Assembly: GCF_029318685.1 (NCBI RefSeq)
Contig: NZ_CP119677.1
Span: forward strand, 1,977,001 to 2,041,000
From: Ruminiclostridium papyrosolvens DSM 2782
Lineage (GTDB): Bacteria; Bacillota; Clostridia; Acetivibrionales; DSM-1351
Length of the DNA stretch: 64,000 nucleotides
Direction: 5' to 3'
Below, one piece after another: positions 6,346 through 59,185 of this stretch. The notes below the pieces were generated by a model. That model saw only the letters and a program-made list of their open reading frames with translations. It did not search any database and was not told the origin of the DNA. Both the position numbers and the translations under genes were made by a program. The number at the start of each line of letters is the position of its first letter. The first letter of the stretch is position 1.

Positions 6346-7797
6346 ATGATAGGAAGTATCGAAAAACGTGGGAAGAATAGTTGTCGTTTAATTGTAAGTG
6401 GAGGGATTGGACAAGATGGGAAATATATAAAATATCAAAAAACAATCAAATTCAACTATGACGATGAAAAGAAAAGACAAAAAGAAGCTGAAAAAGAATT
6501 ATCACTCTTCATTGCTGAGATTGAAAAAAATCAGTACATTGAACCTTCAAGATTAACTTTATCAGACTTTGCTGAAAAATGGATAAAAGATTATGGTAAA
6601 ACTAATTTAGCACCAAAAACTTTATACAGGTATGAAGAAATGTTAAATAGCAGAATTTTGCCTGCTCTAGGACATTTAAAAATTGAAAAAATTAAACCTA
6701 CACACTTGCTTGAATTCTATAACAACTTATCTGAAGATGGAATAAGATTAGATTCAAAATATAAGGCAAAAAAAGAATTCAATGAATTACTGAAAACTTT
6801 AGAAATATCTCTTTATGATTTACAGAAAATTAGCCTTGTAGATATTAGAACATTAAAAAGGGTTGCTAAATCTGAAACGATTAGTATGTCTACAGCAGTA
6901 AAAATTATTGATTCATTAAAGCAAAATATTAAAAAAATTAAAATAGAAGATTATTTTGAGGTGATAGAAACGGGAAAACTATCAGATCAGACAATAAAAC
7001 ATCATCATAGGCTTATTTCTGCAATGCTAGAAAAAGCAGTTAAGTGGCAATTATTACTTAACAATCCGGCTGAAAGAGTAGAACCTCCCAAAGTAGTAAA
7101 GGGCGAGGTTCCACATTATGATGAGTCTCAGGCCGTTACTTTATTGAATTATTTGGAGAAAGAGCCTATAAAATTTCAAGCTATGGTTAATCTAGCATTA
7201 TATGCCCAAATGCGAGAAGGAGAAATAATGGGGCTTGAATGGAAAGATATAAATATGAAAGAAAGAACTATTAATATTAGACAAGCAGCTCAGTATATCC
7301 CTAAAAGGGGAGTATTTATTAAAGAACCAAAGAACGAATCTTCAAAAAGAACTGTTACGGTTCCTAAAAACGTTATGGAAATTCTAAAAGAACTTAGAAA
7401 AATACAGATGCAAGAAGAAAAAGAGGCCGGCACTCGTTGGAAGAAAAATAATAATGAGCAAAATACTGATGCAAACGAAGTAAGAAAATTTATTTTTACA
7501 ACATGGGATGGTGAATTAATGCATCCGTATACTCCTACTAAGCAATTTAAAAAGTTCATTGATTTATATGGTTTGCCCAAATTAACTTTTCACGGACTGA
7601 GACATACTGGTATTACGCTACTTCTTGGAAATGGTGCAGATATAGATTCAGTTAGCAGAAGGGCAGGACATAGCCAAAGGTCAACTACATTGAATATCTA
7701 CTCTCACAGTCTGAGAAGTAAGGATGTAGCTAACGCAAATAAATTAGGAAATATTCTTAACAAGAGCAAAAAGGAAAAGCTTGGTAAAAAGGCTTGA
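6346..7797 (+). CDS. int: Tyrosine-family integrase
   Basis: A 483-residue site-specific recombinase expected to integrate and excise the phage at attP. The N-terminus has the AP2-like arm-binding beta-strands (GSIEKRGKNSCRLIVSGG), followed by a SAM-like core-binding domain and the catalytic domain. Catalytic residues read as R in LYAQMREGEIMGLEW, HxxR in FHGLRHTG, H in AGHSQRSTT and Y in LNIYSH. It is longer than most phage integrases (about 360-400) because of an insertion of roughly 75 residues in the core-binding domain (about 145-220) that looks like a helix-turn-helix (LYDLQKISLVDIRTLKRVAK). The start has AGGAGG upstream, and attP follows directly. Confidence 0.95.
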   Translation: MIGSIEKRGKNSCRLIVSGGIGQDGKYIKYQKTIKFNYDDEKKRQKEAEKELSLFIAEIEKNQYIEPSRLTLSDFAEKWIKDYGKTNLAPKTLYRYEEMLNSRILPALGHLKIEKIKPTHLLEFYNNLSEDGIRLDSKYKAKKEFNELLKTLEISLYDLQKISLVDIRTLKRVAKSETISMSTAVKIIDSLKQNIKKIKIEDYFEVIETGKLSDQTIKHHHRLISAMLEKAVKWQLLLNNPAERVEPPKVVKGEVPHYDESQAVTLLNYLEKEPIKFQAMVNLALYAQMREGEIMGLEWKDINMKERTINIRQAAQYIPKRGVFIKEPKNESSKRTVTVPKNVMEILKELRKIQMQEEKEAGTRWKKNNNEQNTDANEVRKFIFTTWDGELMHPYTPTKQFKKFIDLYGLPKLTFHGLRHTGITLLLGNGADIDSVSRRAGHSQRSTTLNIYSHSLRSKDVANANKLGNILNKSKKEKLGKKA

Positions 7798-7830: not shown

Positions 7831-8127
7831 TTATTTGTTCTTAGTTTTTCCCCAAATTTTCCCCAACACTTAAAAACACCGTAATTTATGATAACATACA
7901 AAAAGCCTAGAAGCTTTACAGCTCTAGGCTTTTCTGTGGCAGGGGAGACAGGACTTGAACCCGCAGCCGACGGTTTTGGAGTGCGCAAAATATATTTATT
8001 TCTTTTTATTTTAAATCGTATATTCTTGATATATCAAGTGTTACATGGAATTCAATTTATTTGTTCTTATCTTTAATATGTAATATTTAATTAAATATTT
8101 TCCCCGAATTTTCCCCAAGTTTTCCCC
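7831..8127. other. attP: attP region with core in tRNA-Trp 3' half and flanking arm repeats
   Basis: The core is 7937-7981: read leftward it is the 3' half of a tRNA-Trp gene, with anticodon loop CTCCAAA (anticodon CCA), the T arm containing GGGTTCAAGTCC, and the discriminator plus CCA. The 5' half of the tRNA is absent, so this is an attachment site and not a tRNA gene. Probable integrase arm sites flank it: TTATTTGTTCTTA at 7831 and again at 8057, and TTTTCCCC repeats at 7846-7864 (two) and 8098-8127 (three). Integration would rebuild an intact host tRNA-Trp. Confidence 0.85.
7901..7936. terminator. Terminator beside attP core
   Basis: AAAAGCCTAGA and TCTAGGCTTTT form a perfect 11-bp stem. 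It can end integrase transcription rightward. Read leftward it sits just after the tRNA-Trp CCA, where the host tRNA terminator would be, so it may be part of the sequence shared with the bacterial site. Confidence 0.7.
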
Positions 8128-8153: not shown

Positions 8154-8181
8154 TTGATTTATTTAATACATGCTATATAAT
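8154..8181 (+). promoter_or_regulatory. Promoter of agrB
   Basis: TTGATT and TATAAT with 16-base spacing lie about 35 bases before the agrB start codon and inside the prophage end next to attP. AgrB therefore appears to have its own promoter, independent of the leftward repressor-receptor-peptide operon. Confidence 0.6.
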
Positions 8182-8214
8182 TATTTTATTAATGATTTTA
8201 AATAGGAGTATAGA

Positions 8215-8832
8215 ATGAGAATAATAGAGAAATTATCATATAAAAGTGCTAATTATTTTGCTAAACAGCTCGGTCTAAATCATCAACAAAGAACAATACG
8301 CTATTTCGGGTTTCAATCATTGTATGGAGATGTAGTTAAAATCTTGATTATGGCAATAGTATCTTTAATAATAAAATCATTTTTAGCAACTATGTTAGTT
8401 GCTTTTTCATTTGCTATTCTAAGAAGAAATGCAGGCGGGTTTCACATGAAAACTGAAATAGGTTGTATAATATTTACAACTTTAATTTGTGTAATTCCCG
8501 GAACCATAATCAGCTACTTTCAATTATTATCAAATATATTAACCATAATCATTTTAATAATTATATTTATTTTTTGCCATATATGCTTATTCAAATATGC
8601 TCCTAAGGGTTCTAAAAACAATATGATAACAGATAAAGATGAAATTCTAAAATTTAAAAAGAAGTCTATAACAACACATCGGTTTTTATATATATGGGTT
8701 ATTTTATTTCTTGTACTAAATAAAAATTACATATCTATATCAATAAGCATTGGTTGTATGTTGGAAGTTCTTACAATTTTACCGATAATTCAAAATACAA
8801 ACAGAATGAAAAAGACAATCAAACTATATTGA
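8215..8832 (+). CDS. agrB: AgrB-family peptide-processing membrane protease
   Basis: A 205-residue integral membrane protein of the accessory gene regulator B family. AgrB cleaves the AgrD precursor at its C-terminal side and forms the thiolactone ring of the autoinducing peptide. The catalytic pair is intact: H77 in NAGGFHMK and C84 in TEIGC, the same residue numbers as in Staphylococcus aureus AgrB, preceded by the family's RRNAGG motif. Five or six hydrophobic segments are visible. The start has AGGAGT upstream. The gene points toward, and converges with, an AgrD-like peptide gene on the other strand, ending in a terminator between them. It lies between attP and the repressor operon, so it would be at the very end of the integrated prophage. 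Confidence 0.92.
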   Translation: MRIIEKLSYKSANYFAKQLGLNHQQRTIRYFGFQSLYGDVVKILIMAIVSLIIKSFLATMLVAFSFAILRRNAGGFHMKTEIGCIIFTTLICVIPGTIISYFQLLSNILTIIILIIIFIFCHICLFKYAPKGSKNNMITDKDEILKFKKKSITTHRFLYIWVILFLVLNKNYISISISIGCMLEVLTILPIIQNTNRMKKTIKLY

Positions 8833-8883
8833 CTGTCTAGCGTAAATTTGGTATTATTAATCGACAAGAAATTATATTTATTG

Positions 8884-8913
8884 GCAACTTTCTCCGTAAA
8901 GTTGCTTTTTTTT
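8884..8913 (+). terminator. Terminator between agrB and agrD
   Basis: GCAACTTT and AAAGTTGC enclose a 6-base loop, followed by eight T on the rightward strand. The T tract touches the stop codon of the leftward agrD gene. It ends agrB transcription before it runs antisense into the peptide gene. Confidence 0.8.
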
Positions 8914-9049
8914 ACTTTTTAATCTTTTTTAATGCTTTTGGAGTTTTAGGTTGATATCCCCAAAGGAAACAAAAATTGTCTGCTTTTGTTTCTGCAACTT
9001 TAGTAACTCCTGAATCAATAAGTGATAATATTTTTTTAGTGTTGTCCAT
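8912..9049 (-). CDS. agrD: AgrD-like autoinducing peptide precursor
   Basis: A 45-residue peptide with a strong AAAGGAGTG ribosome binding site eight bases before the ATG. The N-terminal half (KKILSLIDSGVTKVAETKA) is an amphipathic helix; then comes a single cysteine in NFCFLWGYQPKTPKAL and a lysine-rich tail. Clostridial AgrD peptides share C-(4 residues)-x-QPxxPKxL, with cleavage before the QP segment, so the likely signal is a thiolactone ring CFLWG with a short N-terminal tail. Exact ends are inferred. The ATG overlaps the end of the receptor gene by 14 bases, so it is the last cistron of the repressor-receptor-peptide operon. Confidence 0.8.
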   Translation of the reverse strand: MDNTKKILSLIDSGVTKVAETKADNFCFLWGYQPKTPKALKKIKK

Positions 9050-9785
9050 TTTCAACACTCCTTTCTATATGATATTTTGAAACCTTTGTTATAACCTTTA
9101 TATAATGATATAATATCACAAAATTTAGAAGTCCACTACATGCACAACATAAACCTAGCAATATTTTTGTATCCAAGCTAAATACTGGGAAATAAGCAAT
9201 CACAATTTTAGTAAGATTTAGTTCAATGAAAAATAAAGTGAAAACAATAAATATAAATCCTTTAAGCCCAATTTGATATTGCTTTAATTTTTGTATTACT
9301 GAGCTAAAGTTCCAAAAAGAAATTATAGCAATTATTTGTACGATTCTTTCAGGTATAAAACATAAAAATATCTTTAGTGCCGGAGAGTTTAATAAATTAG
9401 CTTCGCTACCATTATAAAAATAGCGAATGCAGTAGGGGACATATAATGATTCAAAACTAATAATAAGAATGGAAAAAGCTGCTACACCTAACAACGATTC
9501 CATCCATGTAGTATTGTAGAAATATTTCAGTATTATGCAATATACTACCATATATGCAATTGATACTATATTCATGCTAGGAATAAAAGTACCAATAAAA
9601 GAGCCAATAAATGAAACTATGCTCGCCAAAAATAATATTTTCAGTAAACTAATGATAAATTTGTTTGAATCACATTTAAAAGGGACTTCACTTCCCTTGC
9701 CGATAACGACTAAAGAAAACATAAAACAAAGGAAAAATTGCGGTATTGATAAAATACAAGTGTTTAATATACTAAAATTCTCCAT
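9036..9785 (-). CDS. AgrC-like membrane receptor lacking a histidine kinase
   Basis: A 249-residue protein with six or seven hydrophobic segments filling almost its whole length, and a short cytoplasmic tail (KVITKVSKYHIERSVENGQH). Layout and position next to agrD match the sensor half of AgrC receptors, but there is no DHp helix, no H-box and no ATPase domain, and the next gene begins at once, so the kinase is absent rather than split off. The start at 9785 is chosen because GGAGGTT lies just upstream; an in-frame ATG 21 bases earlier has no such site. It lies 44 bases after the repressor gene in the same operon. Peptide sensing is inferred; it could also be a peptide immunity or export protein. 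Confidence 0.65.
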   Translation of the reverse strand: MENFSILNTCILSIPQFFLCFMFSLVVIGKGSEVPFKCDSNKFIISLLKILFLASIVSFIGSFIGTFIPSMNIVSIAYMVVYCIILKYFYNTTWMESLLGVAAFSILIISFESLYVPYCIRYFYNGSEANLLNSPALKIFLCFIPERIVQIIAIISFWNFSSVIQKLKQYQIGLKGFIFIVFTLFFIELNLTKIVIAYFPVFSLDTKILLGLCCACSGLLNFVILYHYIKVITKVSKYHIERSVENGQH

Positions 9786-9829
9786 AACAAACCTCCGTAA
9801 ATTCATTTACATGACAAGAAATAAATTAA

Positions 9830-10402
9830 TTAAAGTTTTCTTGCAATAATTATATTATCCAATGGTATTCCAGAGTTTTTTATTCTTATTGCAATATTCA
9901 TAAATTCTCTATTATCTAAATTTGCAGCGAATTTTATTAATTTGTTTTTTTCAGTGTTATCTTCAGAGTATGGTTGATTCTGACCTAATAATTTATAAAT
10001 ACTAACACCAGAAAGATTAGCAATTTGGTTAATTGTATTTATATCTACTGACTTACCGTCTTCAATGTCTTTAATTTCTTTTACTTTTAAATCATTATAT
10101 AAAGCAAATTCTTTCTGGGATAAATTCATGGTTCGTCTTAATTCTTTTATAGCTGAAGCTATATAAGTTACATCAACTGTATTTAACATATCATTAATGT
10201 CTTCAATATCACATCCTAACAAATAATCAATACTAACATTAAAAATCCTCCTTAGCTTTTTTAAATTTTCAATACTGGGATACCTGCCTTCTTCTGCCAA
10301 TAGTTTACTTATCGCTGATGGAGTAACTCCCAATTCGTTGGCTAAGTCGGCTGGCTTTAAATTAAACTTTTCCATCAACAATGCAAGTCTTCGAGAAAAC
10401 AT
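9830..10402 (-). CDS. Lysogeny repressor with two HTH_XRE domains
   Basis: A 190-residue DNA-binding protein. Residues about 3-64 form one XRE helix-turn-helix (KPADLANELGVTPSAISKLL) and residues about 76-140 a second, degenerate one (IKELRRTMNLSQKEFALYN). The last ~50 residues have no DNA-binding signature and no visible Ser-Lys peptidase of the LexA/CI type, so SOS self-cleavage is unlikely. It is transcribed leftward from a consensus promoter whose spacer holds an operator, with a rightward Cro-like gene opposite: a classic genetic switch. The peptide receptor and AgrD follow in the same operon, which suggests that repression is tuned by the peptide signal. Confidence 0.85.
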   Translation of the reverse strand: MFSRRLALLMEKFNLKPADLANELGVTPSAISKLLAEEGRYPSIENLKKLRRIFNVSIDYLLGCDIEDINDMLNTVDVTYIASAIKELRRTMNLSQKEFALYNDLKVKEIKDIEDGKSVDINTINQIANLSGVSIYKLLGQNQPYSEDNTEKNKLIKFAANLDNREFMNIAIRIKNSGIPLDNIIIARKL

Positions 10403-10435
10403 TTCAACTCCTCCATATATTATACTTTAAGTATA

Positions 10436-10464
10436 ATAATAGACTGGCAGTCAATAAATGTCAA
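10436..10464 (-). promoter_or_regulatory. Repressor operon promoter
   Basis: Leftward TTGACA (10459-10464) and TATTAT (10436-10441) are separated by exactly 17 bases. The palindrome GACTGGCAGTC sits in the spacer, so a protein bound there would block this promoter, as expected for autoregulation. Confidence 0.75.
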
Positions 10465-10546
10465 GAAAAAATGAACTATAGTCAAAGAATGTTTAAAAAA
10501 ATGGAATAATATTCATAAATCATCCATAATTATGAATTATAGTCAA
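10442..10546. promoter_or_regulatory. Three phased repressor operators
   Basis: Three related sites are each followed by AA: GACTGGCAGTC (10442-10452), GAACTATAGTC (10473-10483) and GAATTATAGTC (10534-10544). Start-to-start distances are 31 and 61 bp, close to three and six helical turns. A fourth half-site (TTGACT) lies at 10566. They occupy the gap between the divergent repressor and Cro-like genes. Confidence 0.6.
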
Positions 10547-10609
10547 TATTCAAAATTGCTAATAATTGACTGATAGGATAATATGTTAATGAAAGGAAGT
10601 GATAAACAT

Positions 10610-10882
10610 TTGAGGAAAACAAAGGTAGATAAGTTAAATGCTTTAGGCAGACTTCGAGAAAATGTTGGATTAAAAAGGGAGGATGTTGAATCTAAAGTAA
10701 AAGCCCTACAAAGTGCAGAATTGAGTTGTTCTATCTCTTATCTTTGCAAATTAGAAAAACTAGGAACAGACAAAAAACCTTCGTTACAGTTAGCTTTAGA
10801 GTTGTGTAAAATGTACGGTTGCAAGCTCGAGGATATATATCCAGATTTGAAAGAAAAACTTAGAGAGTATCAAGCTAGTTGA
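10610..10882 (+). CDS. Cro-like HTH regulator
   Basis: A 90-residue protein with an XRE-type helix-turn-helix (LGRLRENVGLKREDVESKV, then a recognition-helix region around SISYLCKLEKLG). It is divergent from the repressor and is the first gene of the early rightward block, the usual place for a Cro-type lytic regulator. The TTG at 10610 is chosen because AAAGGAAGTG lies eight bases upstream; the ATG at 10583 has no ribosome binding site and would sit in the promoter region. Confidence 0.75.
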   Translation: MRKTKVDKLNALGRLRENVGLKREDVESKVKALQSAELSCSISYLCKLEKLGTDKKPSLQLALELCKMYGCKLEDIYPDLKEKLREYQAS

Positions 10883-10907: not shown

Positions 10908-11156
10908 ATGGAAGAAAAAAACTTAACAAAGGAACGTGTAACCTGGGATGCAAAGACTGCATCAAATTATTTAGGAATATCCTATGGATTCTTACTGAAA
11001 TTGGCTAGACAAAAGGAAATACCGTTCATTCATGTCGGAAGAATATACTTGTTTCGCAAAGAATCATTGGATATATGGTTAAGAAATCAAGAAACACAGG
11101 CAATCCAAACTGAATCCACACAGCTATACGGAAAGTTAAGAAAAGTTCAAGAATAA
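10908..11156 (+). CDS. xis: Excisionase-like MerR-fold DNA-binding protein
   Basis: An 82-residue protein matching the excisionase family: WDAKTASNYLGISYGFLLKLARQKEIPFIHVGRIYLFRKE is the winged-helix that binds DNA, with FRKESLDIWL as the closing strand and helix. Such proteins bind attachment-site DNA to favour excision, or act as small regulators. Its place directly after the Cro-like gene in the lytic transcript fits excision at induction. Confidence 0.75.
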   Translation: MEEKNLTKERVTWDAKTASNYLGISYGFLLKLARQKEIPFIHVGRIYLFRKESLDIWLRNQETQAIQTESTQLYGKLRKVQE

Positions 11157-12312: not shown

Positions 12313-13008
12313 TTGAACGAATTATCAGAATTAAACCAAATGACTTCAATGGAAATCGCAGAGGTAACTGGGAAACAACACCCACATGTAATGAGAGATA
12401 TAAGAGATGAAATCGAAAAGCTTGTATCCGGTGGGATTGAGTACCAATCCAAATTTGGATTGGTTGAATACAAAGATGCAAAAGGTGAAAAAAGACCATA
12501 CTACATACTTACCAAAGAAGGAGTACTTCAATTAGCAGCCCGGTATGATGCTGTAGTCAGAGCGAAATTAATTGAACTGGCCATGAAACATGAGCCTAAA
12601 CCACAATCAATAGAAGACCTGATTATAATGCAAGCTCAGTCAATGAAAGATTTGAAATCCCAAGTCAATACGTTGCAGTTAACTACTCAGACAATAAAAG
12701 ATACTGTAATAAGCACACCGGATAAGTGGAGAGATGATATAAACCGTATGCTCAATAAGATTGTAAAGGCCGTTGGGAACTCGAAGTACCGGGAGTTAAA
12801 AACAGAGAGCTACAAACTACTGGAAGAACGTGCTCATGTTGATTTAAACCGCAGGCTTAACAATCAAAGATACAGGATGAAGATTGAAGGAGCTGCGAAA
12901 TCAGCAATAGATAAAGTAAATAAGATGGACATTGTTGAATCAGACCCAAAGCTTCGTGAAATATATTCAGCAATTGTAAAAGAGTACACAATCAAATTTG
13001 TAGCCTGA
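12313..13008 (+). CDS. rha: Rha-family phage regulatory protein
   Basis: A 231-residue protein with a TTG start preceded by AAAGGAGGAAA. The N-terminal ~90 residues match the Rha (pRha) domain: SMEIAEVTGKQHPHVMRDIR, then YYILTKEGVLQLAARYDAVVRAKLIEL. The C-terminal part is helical and basic. Rha-type proteins are small phage regulators or antirepressors; the exact target is unknown. Confidence 0.8.
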   Translation: MNELSELNQMTSMEIAEVTGKQHPHVMRDIRDEIEKLVSGGIEYQSKFGLVEYKDAKGEKRPYYILTKEGVLQLAARYDAVVRAKLIELAMKHEPKPQSIEDLIIMQAQSMKDLKSQVNTLQLTTQTIKDTVISTPDKWRDDINRMLNKIVKAVGNSKYRELKTESYKLLEERAHVDLNRRLNNQRYRMKIEGAAKSAIDKVNKMDIVESDPKLREIYSAIVKEYTIKFVA

Positions 13009-23275: not shown

Positions 23276-23440
23276 ATGAATTTAAAGGAACTCAGAAATA
23301 AAAAGGGACTTACACAGATTGAGGTAGCGGTAAAAGTTGGTGTTTCTGTTTCAGCATATATTTTGTGGGAAAAAGGCGGTTGCTCTCCATCTCCTGAAAA
23401 TCTGGAGAAGTTGAAGGCAGTTTTAGGGGTTGAGGGGTGA
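23276..23440 (+). CDS. Small HTH_XRE regulator
   Basis: A 54-residue protein that is little more than one XRE helix-turn-helix (LKELRNKKGLTQIEVAVKVG, then VSVSAYILWEKG). The SD is AGGAGGAA. The usual acidic start of the recognition loop is replaced by an unusual GGCSPSPENL segment. It probably regulates the replication operon that follows. Confidence 0.75.
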   Translation: MNLKELRNKKGLTQIEVAVKVGVSVSAYILWEKGGCSPSPENLEKLKAVLGVEG

Positions 23441-26964: not shown

Positions 26965-28146
26965 TTGAATGTTGCAATAGCAGATGCAGACTTAATTGCA
27001 AATGTAAATCATAGATTCCCCAATTCATGTTGCATGCGAATAAGCGGGTACCACTTGGGGCTAGGAGATACAACGGAACTTATAACCGAATGGAAACAAG
27101 TACACAAGTTTGACAAAGTATACATATCAAAGGTATTCACTGGAACAATTGTACCTGATGAAATATTAAATTTACCAAATGTAGTATACGGCGGTACTGG
27201 CTTTTATTATCCTAAGACAGCCCCGAGACTGCCACCCGAGATTGAGCACCATATGCCGGATTACAATTTATATTCTGAATGGGTTAAAAGAATGATTGAT
27301 AAAGGTTATAAAAAATCAGAATTTTTCTTTTACACTAGCTGCTCAATCGGGAAACTAACAGATGGTTGTTTTATGGGTTGCTCATTCTGTGTAAACAAGG
27401 ATTGTACAAAGGTACGTTTCAATGCTCATATAGAGGAATTCCACAACAAAGATTACGGGGTATTCATTTTTCTGGATGACCAGTTTCTTGGGTATAAAGA
27501 TTGGGAGCCCTTGTTGGACGAAGTAATAAAGACAGGCAAGCCGTTTCAATTTAAACAGGGCTTAGACATAAGGCTAATGACTGACAAGAAAGCCGAGAAG
27601 CTCACAAATGCAAATTATTACAAGGATTTTATTTTTGCTTTTGACAATATAAATGATGAACCAATTATAAGAGAAAAGTTGGCATTGTGGAGGAAATACA
27701 CTCAGAAACGAACTAAGTTATACACTTTCTGCGGATATGAGGAAAAAAGAAACAAACTCCAAGAATATGAAACTGAATTTTGGGTAAAGGACTTGAACAG
27801 CGTTTTTAAAAGGATTTTTATTCTAGCTGAATATGATTGTGTTCCTTACATAATGCGGCATTTAGACTACAAACTAAGTCCATTTTCAGCTATCTACAAT
27901 GAAATAGCAAGTTGGTGTAATCAGCCTTGGGCGTTAAGAACAATGACATATAGACAATTCTGCATCGGACGGGGTATGGGCAAAAGATATAAGCAGTACA
28001 AACATGACCCTGAAAGATACTTGCAAGACGGACATAAAAAAGGTTCTTCTTGGGTTCAGATGGAGAAGTTTGAACAGATGTATCCCGAAATTGCGGCAAA
28101 GTATTTTGACAAAAAGTATTCGGATGCATGCATGAAAGCAGCATAG
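26965..28146 (+). CDS. Radical SAM protein
   Basis: A 393-residue protein, TTG start with GAAGGTGAT upstream. The N-terminal ~110 residues resemble a B12-binding-like Rossmann domain as in MiaB/B12-type radical SAM proteins; CFMGCSFC (CxxxCxxC) then binds the 4Fe-4S cluster that cleaves S-adenosylmethionine. Large aromatic-rich segments follow. The reaction is unknown. It heads a block with a second CxxxCxxC protein, ASCH, Nmad1, MazG-like and PAPS-reductase-like genes, which suggests nucleotide or nucleic-acid modification. Confidence 0.8.
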   Translation: MNVAIADADLIANVNHRFPNSCCMRISGYHLGLGDTTELITEWKQVHKFDKVYISKVFTGTIVPDEILNLPNVVYGGTGFYYPKTAPRLPPEIEHHMPDYNLYSEWVKRMIDKGYKKSEFFFYTSCSIGKLTDGCFMGCSFCVNKDCTKVRFNAHIEEFHNKDYGVFIFLDDQFLGYKDWEPLLDEVIKTGKPFQFKQGLDIRLMTDKKAEKLTNANYYKDFIFAFDNINDEPIIREKLALWRKYTQKRTKLYTFCGYEEKRNKLQEYETEFWVKDLNSVFKRIFILAEYDCVPYIMRHLDYKLSPFSAIYNEIASWCNQPWALRTMTYRQFCIGRGMGKRYKQYKHDPERYLQDGHKKGSSWVQMEKFEQMYPEIAAKYFDKKYSDACMKAA

Positions 28147-57519: not shown

Positions 57520-57548
57520 AAAGCAGGGGGATTAACCCTCTGCTTTAA
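57520..57548. terminator. Bidirectional terminator
   Basis: AAAGCAG and CTGCTTT arms with extra G-C pairs in the loop (GGGG/CCCT). It ends the tail operon rightward and overlaps the 3' end of the convergent stalk-domain gene. Confidence 0.75.
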
Positions 57549-58215
57549 TTATTGGTAACATTGTGTTTTCGTAATAATCAAGTGTAAAATATTCTAAATC
57601 ATTTATATAAAGGTATTCAACTTCGTAAATTAACTCTTTCTTGTCAGATGTACGTTTTAAAGCAAGAATATATTTTTGTGGAATCGTACCATCTGCTGTT
57701 TTAAACCTAATTGAATGGTATTTTGAAAGTATATCATTTGATAAAACAAATTTCTGAGGATTATTTTTATAAGTGTAAACATATAAACCATCAGAAGTTT
57801 TTTCCTCACATAGGTTTAATTTACCAAACAACTTAGTATGCCTATCCATATTATCATTCGGAATAATATCATCTTTAGAGGTCTTTGGAATTATAGGAGC
57901 TTCGGTATTGGTTTGGCTGCCATTTGTAGATGTACCGGGAGAAGGTACCGCAGTATTGTCAGAAATATTAACAGTACTGGTTTTTCCATCCCATTGAACT
58001 TTAGCTCCTAAAGCTTCAGCAACATATTTGGCAGGAACGTAGGTTCTGCTGTTTATTGTTACTGGTTCTTCACCATTTGCAAATGATACTTTCTCACCAT
58101 TTATAACAACTTTTACCCCGTTGAATATTGCCTGAACTGTATCGGTTTTAGCCAAAGAGGGTATTGCACACATTAGCACTGCACCCATTATAAAGCCCAA
58201 TATAAATTTTTTCAT
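57532..58215 (-). CDS. Secreted stalk-domain protein (copper-amine-oxidase N-terminal domain)
   Basis: A 227-residue protein with a signal peptide (KKFILGFIMGAVLMCAIPSL then AKTD) and one copper-amine-oxidase-N/stalk domain (GVKVVINGEKVSFANGEEPV, INSRTYVPAKYVAEALG, VQWDGKTSTVNI), a linker rich in T/S/P/N, and an unassigned C-terminal domain. These domains are very common on exported clostridial proteins. Encoded against the late genes, it is a probable moron expressed in the lysogen and exported to the cell surface. AAGGAGA precedes the start at 58215. Confidence 0.8.
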   Translation of the reverse strand: MKKFILGFIMGAVLMCAIPSLAKTDTVQAIFNGVKVVINGEKVSFANGEEPVTINSRTYVPAKYVAEALGAKVQWDGKTSTVNISDNTAVPSPGTSTNGSQTNTEAPIIPKTSKDDIIPNDNMDRHTKLFGKLNLCEEKTSDGLYVYTYKNNPQKFVLSNDILSKYHSIRFKTADGTIPQKYILALKRTSDKKELIYEVEYLYINDLEYFTLDYYENTMLPIIKAEG

Positions 58216-58343
58216 ACTCATTTCTCCTTACATATAAAAAATATACCTCTAATTACATTATATCCCATAAGTGTTACTAAATAAACAGTCTTATAAAATT
58301 TTTAAAGTATAAACGTCATACTTGCTAATGGATAAAATAGGAC

Positions 58344-58429: not shown

Positions 58430-59185
58430 ATGCAATTAATTAAGTCAGAAAGCTTTGGTTCAGTTCAATGTGACGTATGGAAGGATGAAAATGGCGAAAT
58501 GTGGTTTACCAGAGAACAGATAGGCCAAGCCTTGGAGTATGGTACGCCAAGAATAGCTATTGCAAATATTCACGAAAGAAACGCAGATAGGATTGATAAA
58601 TTTTCAGCTGTAGTCAAATTGAGTACACCTTCAGGAATACAAGAAACGTATATTTATAGCCACAAAGGTTTAAACGAAATATGCCGTTTCAGTAGACAGC
58701 CAAAAGCAGATGCTTTTATGGATTGGGTATGGGAAGTAATTGAATCTATCCGTAAACATGGCATGTATGCTAAGGATGAATTGTTAGATAATCCTGATTT
58801 AATGATAGAGGTAATAACACAGCTTAAAAAAGAGCGTGAAGAAAAGAAACTTCTTCAAACAGAAAATAAGTTGTTGTCACAGGAAAAACTTACTTGGGCA
58901 GACAGGAAGGTTATTGAAGCTATTGTCAAAAAGATAGGGAGTAACATTGGCTATGACGTAGCTTGGAAAGAGTTTAAAAAGGAGCTTCTTTACTCACATG
59001 GAATATGCCTTAATTCAAGGATTACGAATTGGAGAAATTCTACTGGGAAAAAGACTGGTCCCAGAACATTGGACATGATAGATGATGATGAATTACAGGC
59101 ATGTCTTGCTACAGCGACTGCATCTGCAAGGCACCACGGTATAGATATTTCTGACATCATTAAAAAATTTGAGAAGTCGGCTTAA
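58430..59185 (+). CDS. BRO-family antirepressor
   Basis: A 251-residue protein. The N-terminal BRO-N domain reads SVQCDVWKDENGEMWFTREQ, IGQALEYGTPRIAIANIHER and HKGLNEICRFSRQPKADAFM; a coiled segment and a C-terminal domain with TWADRKVIEAIVKKIGSNIG follow. Such proteins act as antirepressors or DNA-binding regulators. Its position, 48 kb from the repressor and beside the stalk-domain gene, suggests a separate cassette. GGAGG precedes the ATG. Confidence 0.85.
   Translation: MQLIKSESFGSVQCDVWKDENGEMWFTREQIGQALEYGTPRIAIANIHERNADRIDKFSAVVKLSTPSGIQETYIYSHKGLNEICRFSRQPKADAFMDWVWEVIESIRKHGMYAKDELLDNPDLMIEVITQLKKEREEKKLLQTENKLLSQEKLTWADRKVIEAIVKKIGSNIGYDVAWKEFKKELLYSHGICLNSRITNWRNSTGKKTGPRTLDMIDDDELQACLATATASARHHGIDISDIIKKFEKSA

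Follow-up and report, generated by a model that had tools for sequence, protein, structure and literature searches.

The phage agr genes closest to those considered here are in phiCDHM1 of Clostridioides difficile. In the consulted portion of its description, this phage has agrB, agrD and an agrC-like gene, with no response regulator found; its AgrC has a HATPase_C kinase domain and no identified receptor domain, and an endolysin gene lies beside agrD (PMC3901668). Excerpts of two reviews place agr genes in C. difficile phages, one of them also naming Bacillus, and state no tie to a repressor (PMC11945551, PMC7790227). The same excerpts describe arbitrium, in which the imported peptide AimP is recognised by AimR, a receptor that doubles as the transcription factor (PMC7790227, PMC11945551). 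Inhibition of a regulator by a partner membrane protein, outside known phosphosignalling, is possible in HdrRM and BrsRM, which are LytTR regulatory systems (PMC6193735, in excerpt). Described here is an agr module at one end of a 62.8-kb prophage of Ruminiclostridium papyrosolvens DSM 2782, in a stretch of 64,000 nucleotides (contig NZ_CP119677.1, positions 1,977,001 to 2,041,000) that is called the window. Coordinates refer to the window unless a genome (G) or locus (L) is given. The module encodes AgrB, AgrD, an AgrC-type receptor without a kinase, and a helix-turn-helix (HTH) repressor.

Like phiCDHM1, the window has phage-borne agrB, agrD and an agrC-like gene, with no response regulator found in the module. 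It differs, as far as the phiCDHM1 paper's own description goes, in having the receptor half and no kinase, in line with a repressor (PMC3901668). With arbitrium it has in common a phage-encoded peptide signal informing lysis-lysogeny, shown there and proposed here (PMC7790227, PMC11945551, both in excerpt), whereas in the window the predicted peptide is cyclic and of the AgrD type, with an AgrB to itself, and receptor and repressor are two proteins, the first in the membrane. The initial annotation had called the architecture unlike arbitrium, and this holds, the receptor being a multi-span AgrC-type protein and the DNA-binding protein a separate HTH_3 protein. AgrB, AgrD and the AgrC-type sensor region are shared with the bacterial agr system (AgrBDCA), but the kinase and response regulator are missing, with the HTH repressor in their place. 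The LytTR systems likewise pair a membrane protein with a DNA-binding regulator; theirs is of the LytTR family, with no peptide signal named in the excerpt (PMC6193735), whereas that of the window is HTH_3 and has no LytTR domain. No report of a kinase-less AgrC with an HTH regulator was found in the literature searched, as judged on titles and abstract openings. The match of the prophage membrane protein to the AgrC sensor region, together with its absent kinase, is new.

A phage-borne, kinase-less agr circuit tied to the repressor is well supported, and, as proposed in the initial annotation, this circuit is likely to control lysis-lysogeny. Repressor, receptor and AgrD would, from their layout, form one operon. 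AgrB would cut and cyclise AgrD into a five-residue thiolactone around CFLWG, and the released cyclic peptide would bind the kinase-less receptor. The receptor would then alter the repressor by direct contact, most simply if the empty receptor holds the repressor at the membrane and the peptide frees it. Many lysogens nearby would give stronger repression and a silent prophage, and a lone infected cell would tend towards lysis; the sign of the effect of the peptide on repression is a guess. Direct contact is proposed as the simplest reading, because the module has no kinase and no response regulator and the repressor is directly upstream. The chances are put at even that the prophage has a private agr-type cell-to-cell signal circuit of this kind, feeding a DNA-binding repressor without a phosphorelay. 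If so, phages would possess, in addition to arbitrium, a second way of informing lysogeny by peptide, this one built on a cyclic signal and a membrane receptor, and agr sensing would include a branch that does without a phosphorelay. It would also provide a clear test case for the role of phage agr genes, a question raised by phiCDHM1.

The receptor, AgrB and AgrD

The membrane protein of 249 residues (9036..9785, reverse strand) had been proposed as the receptor in the initial annotation, and profile comparison assigns it to the AgrC type. Using hhalign, its family profile matched the AgrC sensor region with 98.4% probability over 198 columns, with an E-value of 8.5e-15. This is the E-value of one profile against one other, therefore the controls, at 0.3% for AgrB and 0.1% for four other multi-span families, weigh more. 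The AgrC profile was built from 18 AgrC-type proteins of the order (from L141-L159, with L147 dropped); HATPase_c and GHKL matches were obtained in each of the four that were scanned. The window protein ends after the sensor region. It has no Pfam or NCBIfam match, no match to a kinase family, and a sole PHROG match at E 0.049. Pfam named no family in the ten relatives scanned, NCBIfam gave weak matches or none in seven, and no sequence relative was found among solved structures. By these comparisons the protein classifies as an AgrC-type receptor without a kinase, and the missing kinase, which the initial annotation does not mention, is its most unusual feature. The closest named relative is from Ruminiclostridium hungatei DSM 14427. 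No AgrA response regulator is present in the module, its neighbours being the repressor, Cro-like and HTH_17 genes. Of the components of agr, the module has AgrB, AgrD and the AgrC sensor region, and not the kinase domain.

AgrB, the peptide-processing membrane protease, is encoded on the forward strand (8215..8832; Pfam AgrB 116 bits, cut-off 23). H77 and C84, its catalytic residues, are intact, as had been noted. Against GenBank phages it gives one weak match, to a Staphylococcus phage record, and against PHROG one match, to a family of unknown function. The AgrD pre-peptide, on the reverse strand (8912..9049), had been called AgrD-like and is identified as such by NCBIfam TIGR04223 (47.5 bits, cut-off 19). 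Its predicted ring, CFLWG, precedes YQPKTP, and both the ring nucleophile and the QPxxP motif are kept. The receptor and AgrD frames overlap, and a terminator-like hairpin (8883..8906, forward) lies between the convergent ends of agrB and agrD. The repressor and Cro-like genes, like these three, have the positions and orientations first annotated for them.

agrB had been given a promoter of its own, and a site TTGATT-16-TATAAT (10/12 matches) is found at 8154..8181 on the forward strand. The leftward genes had been read as an operon transcribed from a consensus promoter. They are in line, and a promoter-like site TTGACA-17-TATTAT (11/12 matches) precedes the repressor at 10436..10464 on the reverse strand, but that they share a single transcript is suggested by layout. 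Such sites are weak on their own, because the region has 35 of them against a mean of 20.1 in shuffles.

Receptors and regulators in other genomes

The arrangement of regulator, receptor and AgrD in line, with AgrB convergent, is found in five genomes of the genus, so that the linkage to a repressor claimed in the initial annotation is borne out beyond the window. These are the genome of the window, which has the arrangement twice, R. hungatei (L037), G006 (L036), G008 (L091) and G003 (L095). In the receptor tree the window, R. hungatei and G006 form one clade and G008 and G003 another, each with 100/100 support, and neither is placed beside the host's own chromosomal receptor copies (L045 and L070). 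Terminase, portal and tape-measure genes are near the G006 and G008 loci. All three members of the first clade have a Cro-like gene opposite the regulator. In the second, a protein of approximately 180–195 residues, multi-span by eye, follows agrB (L091 5002-5544 and L095 3195-3782); it was not seen in the modules of the window, R. hungatei and G006.

The receptor profile has matches in 38 of 58 genomes of the order, and in at least 24 of 391 across the class, this being a lower bound as at most seven candidates per genome were scored. Sixty-five loci gave 66 receptor genes, one locus being present twice (L048, L070) and one, L044, lying outside the order. The count leaves aside the two copies of the window itself, and five receptor places were left out: G040:C51, G011:C277 and G043:C93 (short frames), G027:C789 and G055:C28. 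A short AgrD-type peptide on the same strand follows 62 of the 65 distinct receptor copies. A cyclic thiolactone or lactone signal would need Cys or Ser at the ring position. Counting back five residues from the Q of QPxxP (HPxxP in one), 36 of these peptides have Cys, 25 have Ser and one has Ala, and the ring residues between this fixed position and the motif vary.

An HTH gene adjoins 44 of the 66 receptor genes, being upstream on the same strand in 19 cases and convergent downstream in 25; by the same HTH models none of 50 control genes of the same loci has such a neighbour. At L036 and L098 the HTH gene is outside the adjacency limits. The HTH, AgrD and receptor models were trained in part on loci to which they were applied, and this overlap favours linkage. 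AgrB is within 4.5 kb of the receptor in 13 of the 66. In L099, L104, L107, L108, L111 and L114, which have no HTH neighbour, receptor and peptide are flanked by amidotransferase-like and MscS-like genes, as read by eye. More tentatively, with chances somewhat short of even, these genes may represent their own signalling class, in which quorum sensing by cyclic peptide passes through a kinase-less AgrC that controls an HTH repressor directly. The class would be scattered across clostridial chromosomes and would have entered prophages of at least two lineages, one of which would use it as the lysogeny switch itself. If the circuit is as proposed, the presence of relatives in many clostridial genomes would make the control of an HTH protein by a kinase-less receptor directly testable.

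Public virus sequences gave few matches. Single-protein scans of IMG/VR with the receptor and AgrB found none. An alignment of three close receptors found one contig, on which receptor and AgrD are equal to those of R. hungatei, and alignments of two other receptor groups found none. A DNA pattern for the peptide, in the Cys form only and with Tyr before QP, matched 13 contigs; a receptor is on none of them, and two give weak, short matches to the peptide. These scans require conserved stretches and miss distant relatives. Among GenBank phages and plasmids, with 50,697 public phage records, there was no receptor match. This last result, together with an insertion inside the G006 module, would suit decaying or neutral passenger genes with no present role. 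That explanation is highly improbable, since the frames are open with plausible ribosome-binding sites (read by eye), the AgrB catalytic residues are kept, and the ring position is Cys or Ser in 61 of 62 peptides. In addition, the nonsynonymous rate (dN) is below the synonymous rate (dS) for agrB, receptor, agrD and repressor in all pairs with estimable dS.

The repressor, the Cro-like gene and candidate operators

The repressor (9830..10402, reverse strand) has two HTH stretches (HTH_3, 63.5 bits) and the same direction as receptor and AgrD. Relatives located by receptor genes match at 71% in R. hungatei and 45% in G006. Among 11 genomes of the genus there are five places with full-length repressor relatives, all five by a receptor gene; at four further places the match is confined to the N-terminal HTH, and the G003 regulator was not returned at the limit used. 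Within the prophage, the HTH models find the repressor as the only full-length CI-like HTH protein, with one further HTH gene of 54 residues (23276-23440). A second repressor considered at 57532-58221 was rejected, being a copper-amine-oxidase N-terminal domain. The repressor lacks an S24 domain, and neither S24 nor M78 has a match anywhere in the prophage, which leaves no sign of the usual SOS or ImmA route. The antirepressor-type genes of the prophage, Rha (12313-13008) and Bro-N (58430-59185), would be an alternative route.

Divergent from the repressor is the Cro-like gene (10583..10882, forward). The earlier designation is upheld by its position and by relatives of 74% (R. hungatei) and 43% (G006) beside the repressor relatives, but its HTH_31 match, at 20.2 bits, is below the cut-off of 27. 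Inside the repressor promoter is a palindrome, TAGACTG-G-CAGTCAA (TAGACTGGCAGTCAA, 10440..10454), which is identical in R. hungatei (L037 10856-10870) and is a possible operator. A degenerate second copy lies just before the Cro-like gene (10566..10580), its R. hungatei counterpart being TTGACTGGCAGTATA (L037 10982-10996). As a promoter the second palindrome was dropped, its spacing being unfit by eye. The region resembles a CI/Cro-type switch in its divergent layout and conserved palindromes, while the Cro-like profile is weak and the palindromes are candidate operators only.

Several observations weigh against the proposed circuit. Over the window the palindrome shows no enrichment, with 4 matches where 3.0 are expected when up to three mismatches are allowed, and G006 keeps it poorly. 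The HTH models find no HTH gene at 20 of the 66 receptor genes. The AlphaFold model of the receptor, made from two sequences, has a mean predicted local distance difference test score (pLDDT) of 52.5, too poor for a fold search. The G006 insertion, an element of approximately 1.3 kb with an IS3-type transposase (rve, HTH_21; L036 10079-10891), is between repressor and receptor. The G008 cassette and another divergent pair lie on opposite sides of int; one gene of that pair matches HTH_3 at 21.0 bits, short of the cut-off of 23, and its partner has no HTH match. The R. hungatei prophage has a second set of int, CI, Cro and Rha genes.

The last two cases, one cassette apart from another divergent pair and one prophage with two switches, are what would be expected of an autonomous bacterial signalling cassette carried as cargo. 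Its HTH regulator would mainly control its own agr genes, perhaps also host genes, the position facing the Cro-like gene would be a by-product, and other regulators would decide lysogeny. The receptor relatives with peptide and HTH gene, which in the loci read are mostly outside recognised prophages, with a recombinase in five loci by the recombinase models, are also in keeping with this. Cargo is nonetheless considered unlikely, since the window prophage has no other full-length CI-like gene by the HTH models. Moreover, three prophages with little other gene content in common have retained the divergent repressor and Cro-like genes side by side, with the palindromes conserved in two. A single frame of the R. 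hungatei prophage (L037 11478-12632) combines a MazF/PemK toxin domain with the antirepressor domains P22_AR_N and KilAC.

The tandem prophage

The genome of the window (G000) is 5.03 Mb in one contig. Its prophage of 62,771 bp is present in two tandem copies, with zero base differences between them (G000 1922166-1984981), and PHROG hits for a terminase, a portal and an internal virion protein confirm that it is a phage. The tandem pair may be a true double lysogen or an assembly effect. The duplication spans G000 1922166-2047752, and the window from 7937 onward is copy 2. The insertion site is tRNA-Trp, intact at G000 2047708-2047783. A 45-bp attachment core, the 3' end of tRNA-Trp, is common to both ends of the repeat; at 7937..7981 it lies between the int of copy 1 and the agr module of copy 2, marking the junction of the copies. 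An identical 45-bp core flanks the R. hungatei prophage, the attachment repeats there being 76 kb apart. The tyrosine integrase at the right end of copy 1 is at 6346..7797 on the forward strand (Pfam Phage_integrase, 91 bits). The order in the circular phage, deduced from the core, is int, attP, agrB, agrD, receptor, repressor and Cro-like gene.

The interval from int to the repressor is a usual place of conversion genes, which favours lysogenic conversion as an explanation. The phage peptide, the receptor or both would then jam or hijack the host agr, as a competing peptide or decoy receptor, and the place behind the repressor would merely ensure expression in the lysogen. The host would offer targets, having four other AgrB places and three other AgrD places over the cut-off, two further kinase-less receptors, and an agrB whose neighbours are a kinase gene and a candidate short peptide. 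Conversion is nevertheless rather improbable: AgrB and receptor come with the phage itself, the predicted ring CFLWG differs from the CMSSY and CYGYY of the two host kinase-less systems, and many other loci include an HTH gene in the unit.

Beyond the Cro-like gene is an HTH_17 protein (10908..11156, forward; Pfam HTH_17 36.7 bits) that is possibly excisionase-like, having weak PHROG excisionase matches; a 39-residue stretch of it matches at 74% in R. hungatei. Further inside the phage, a radical SAM protein is encoded at 26965-28146.

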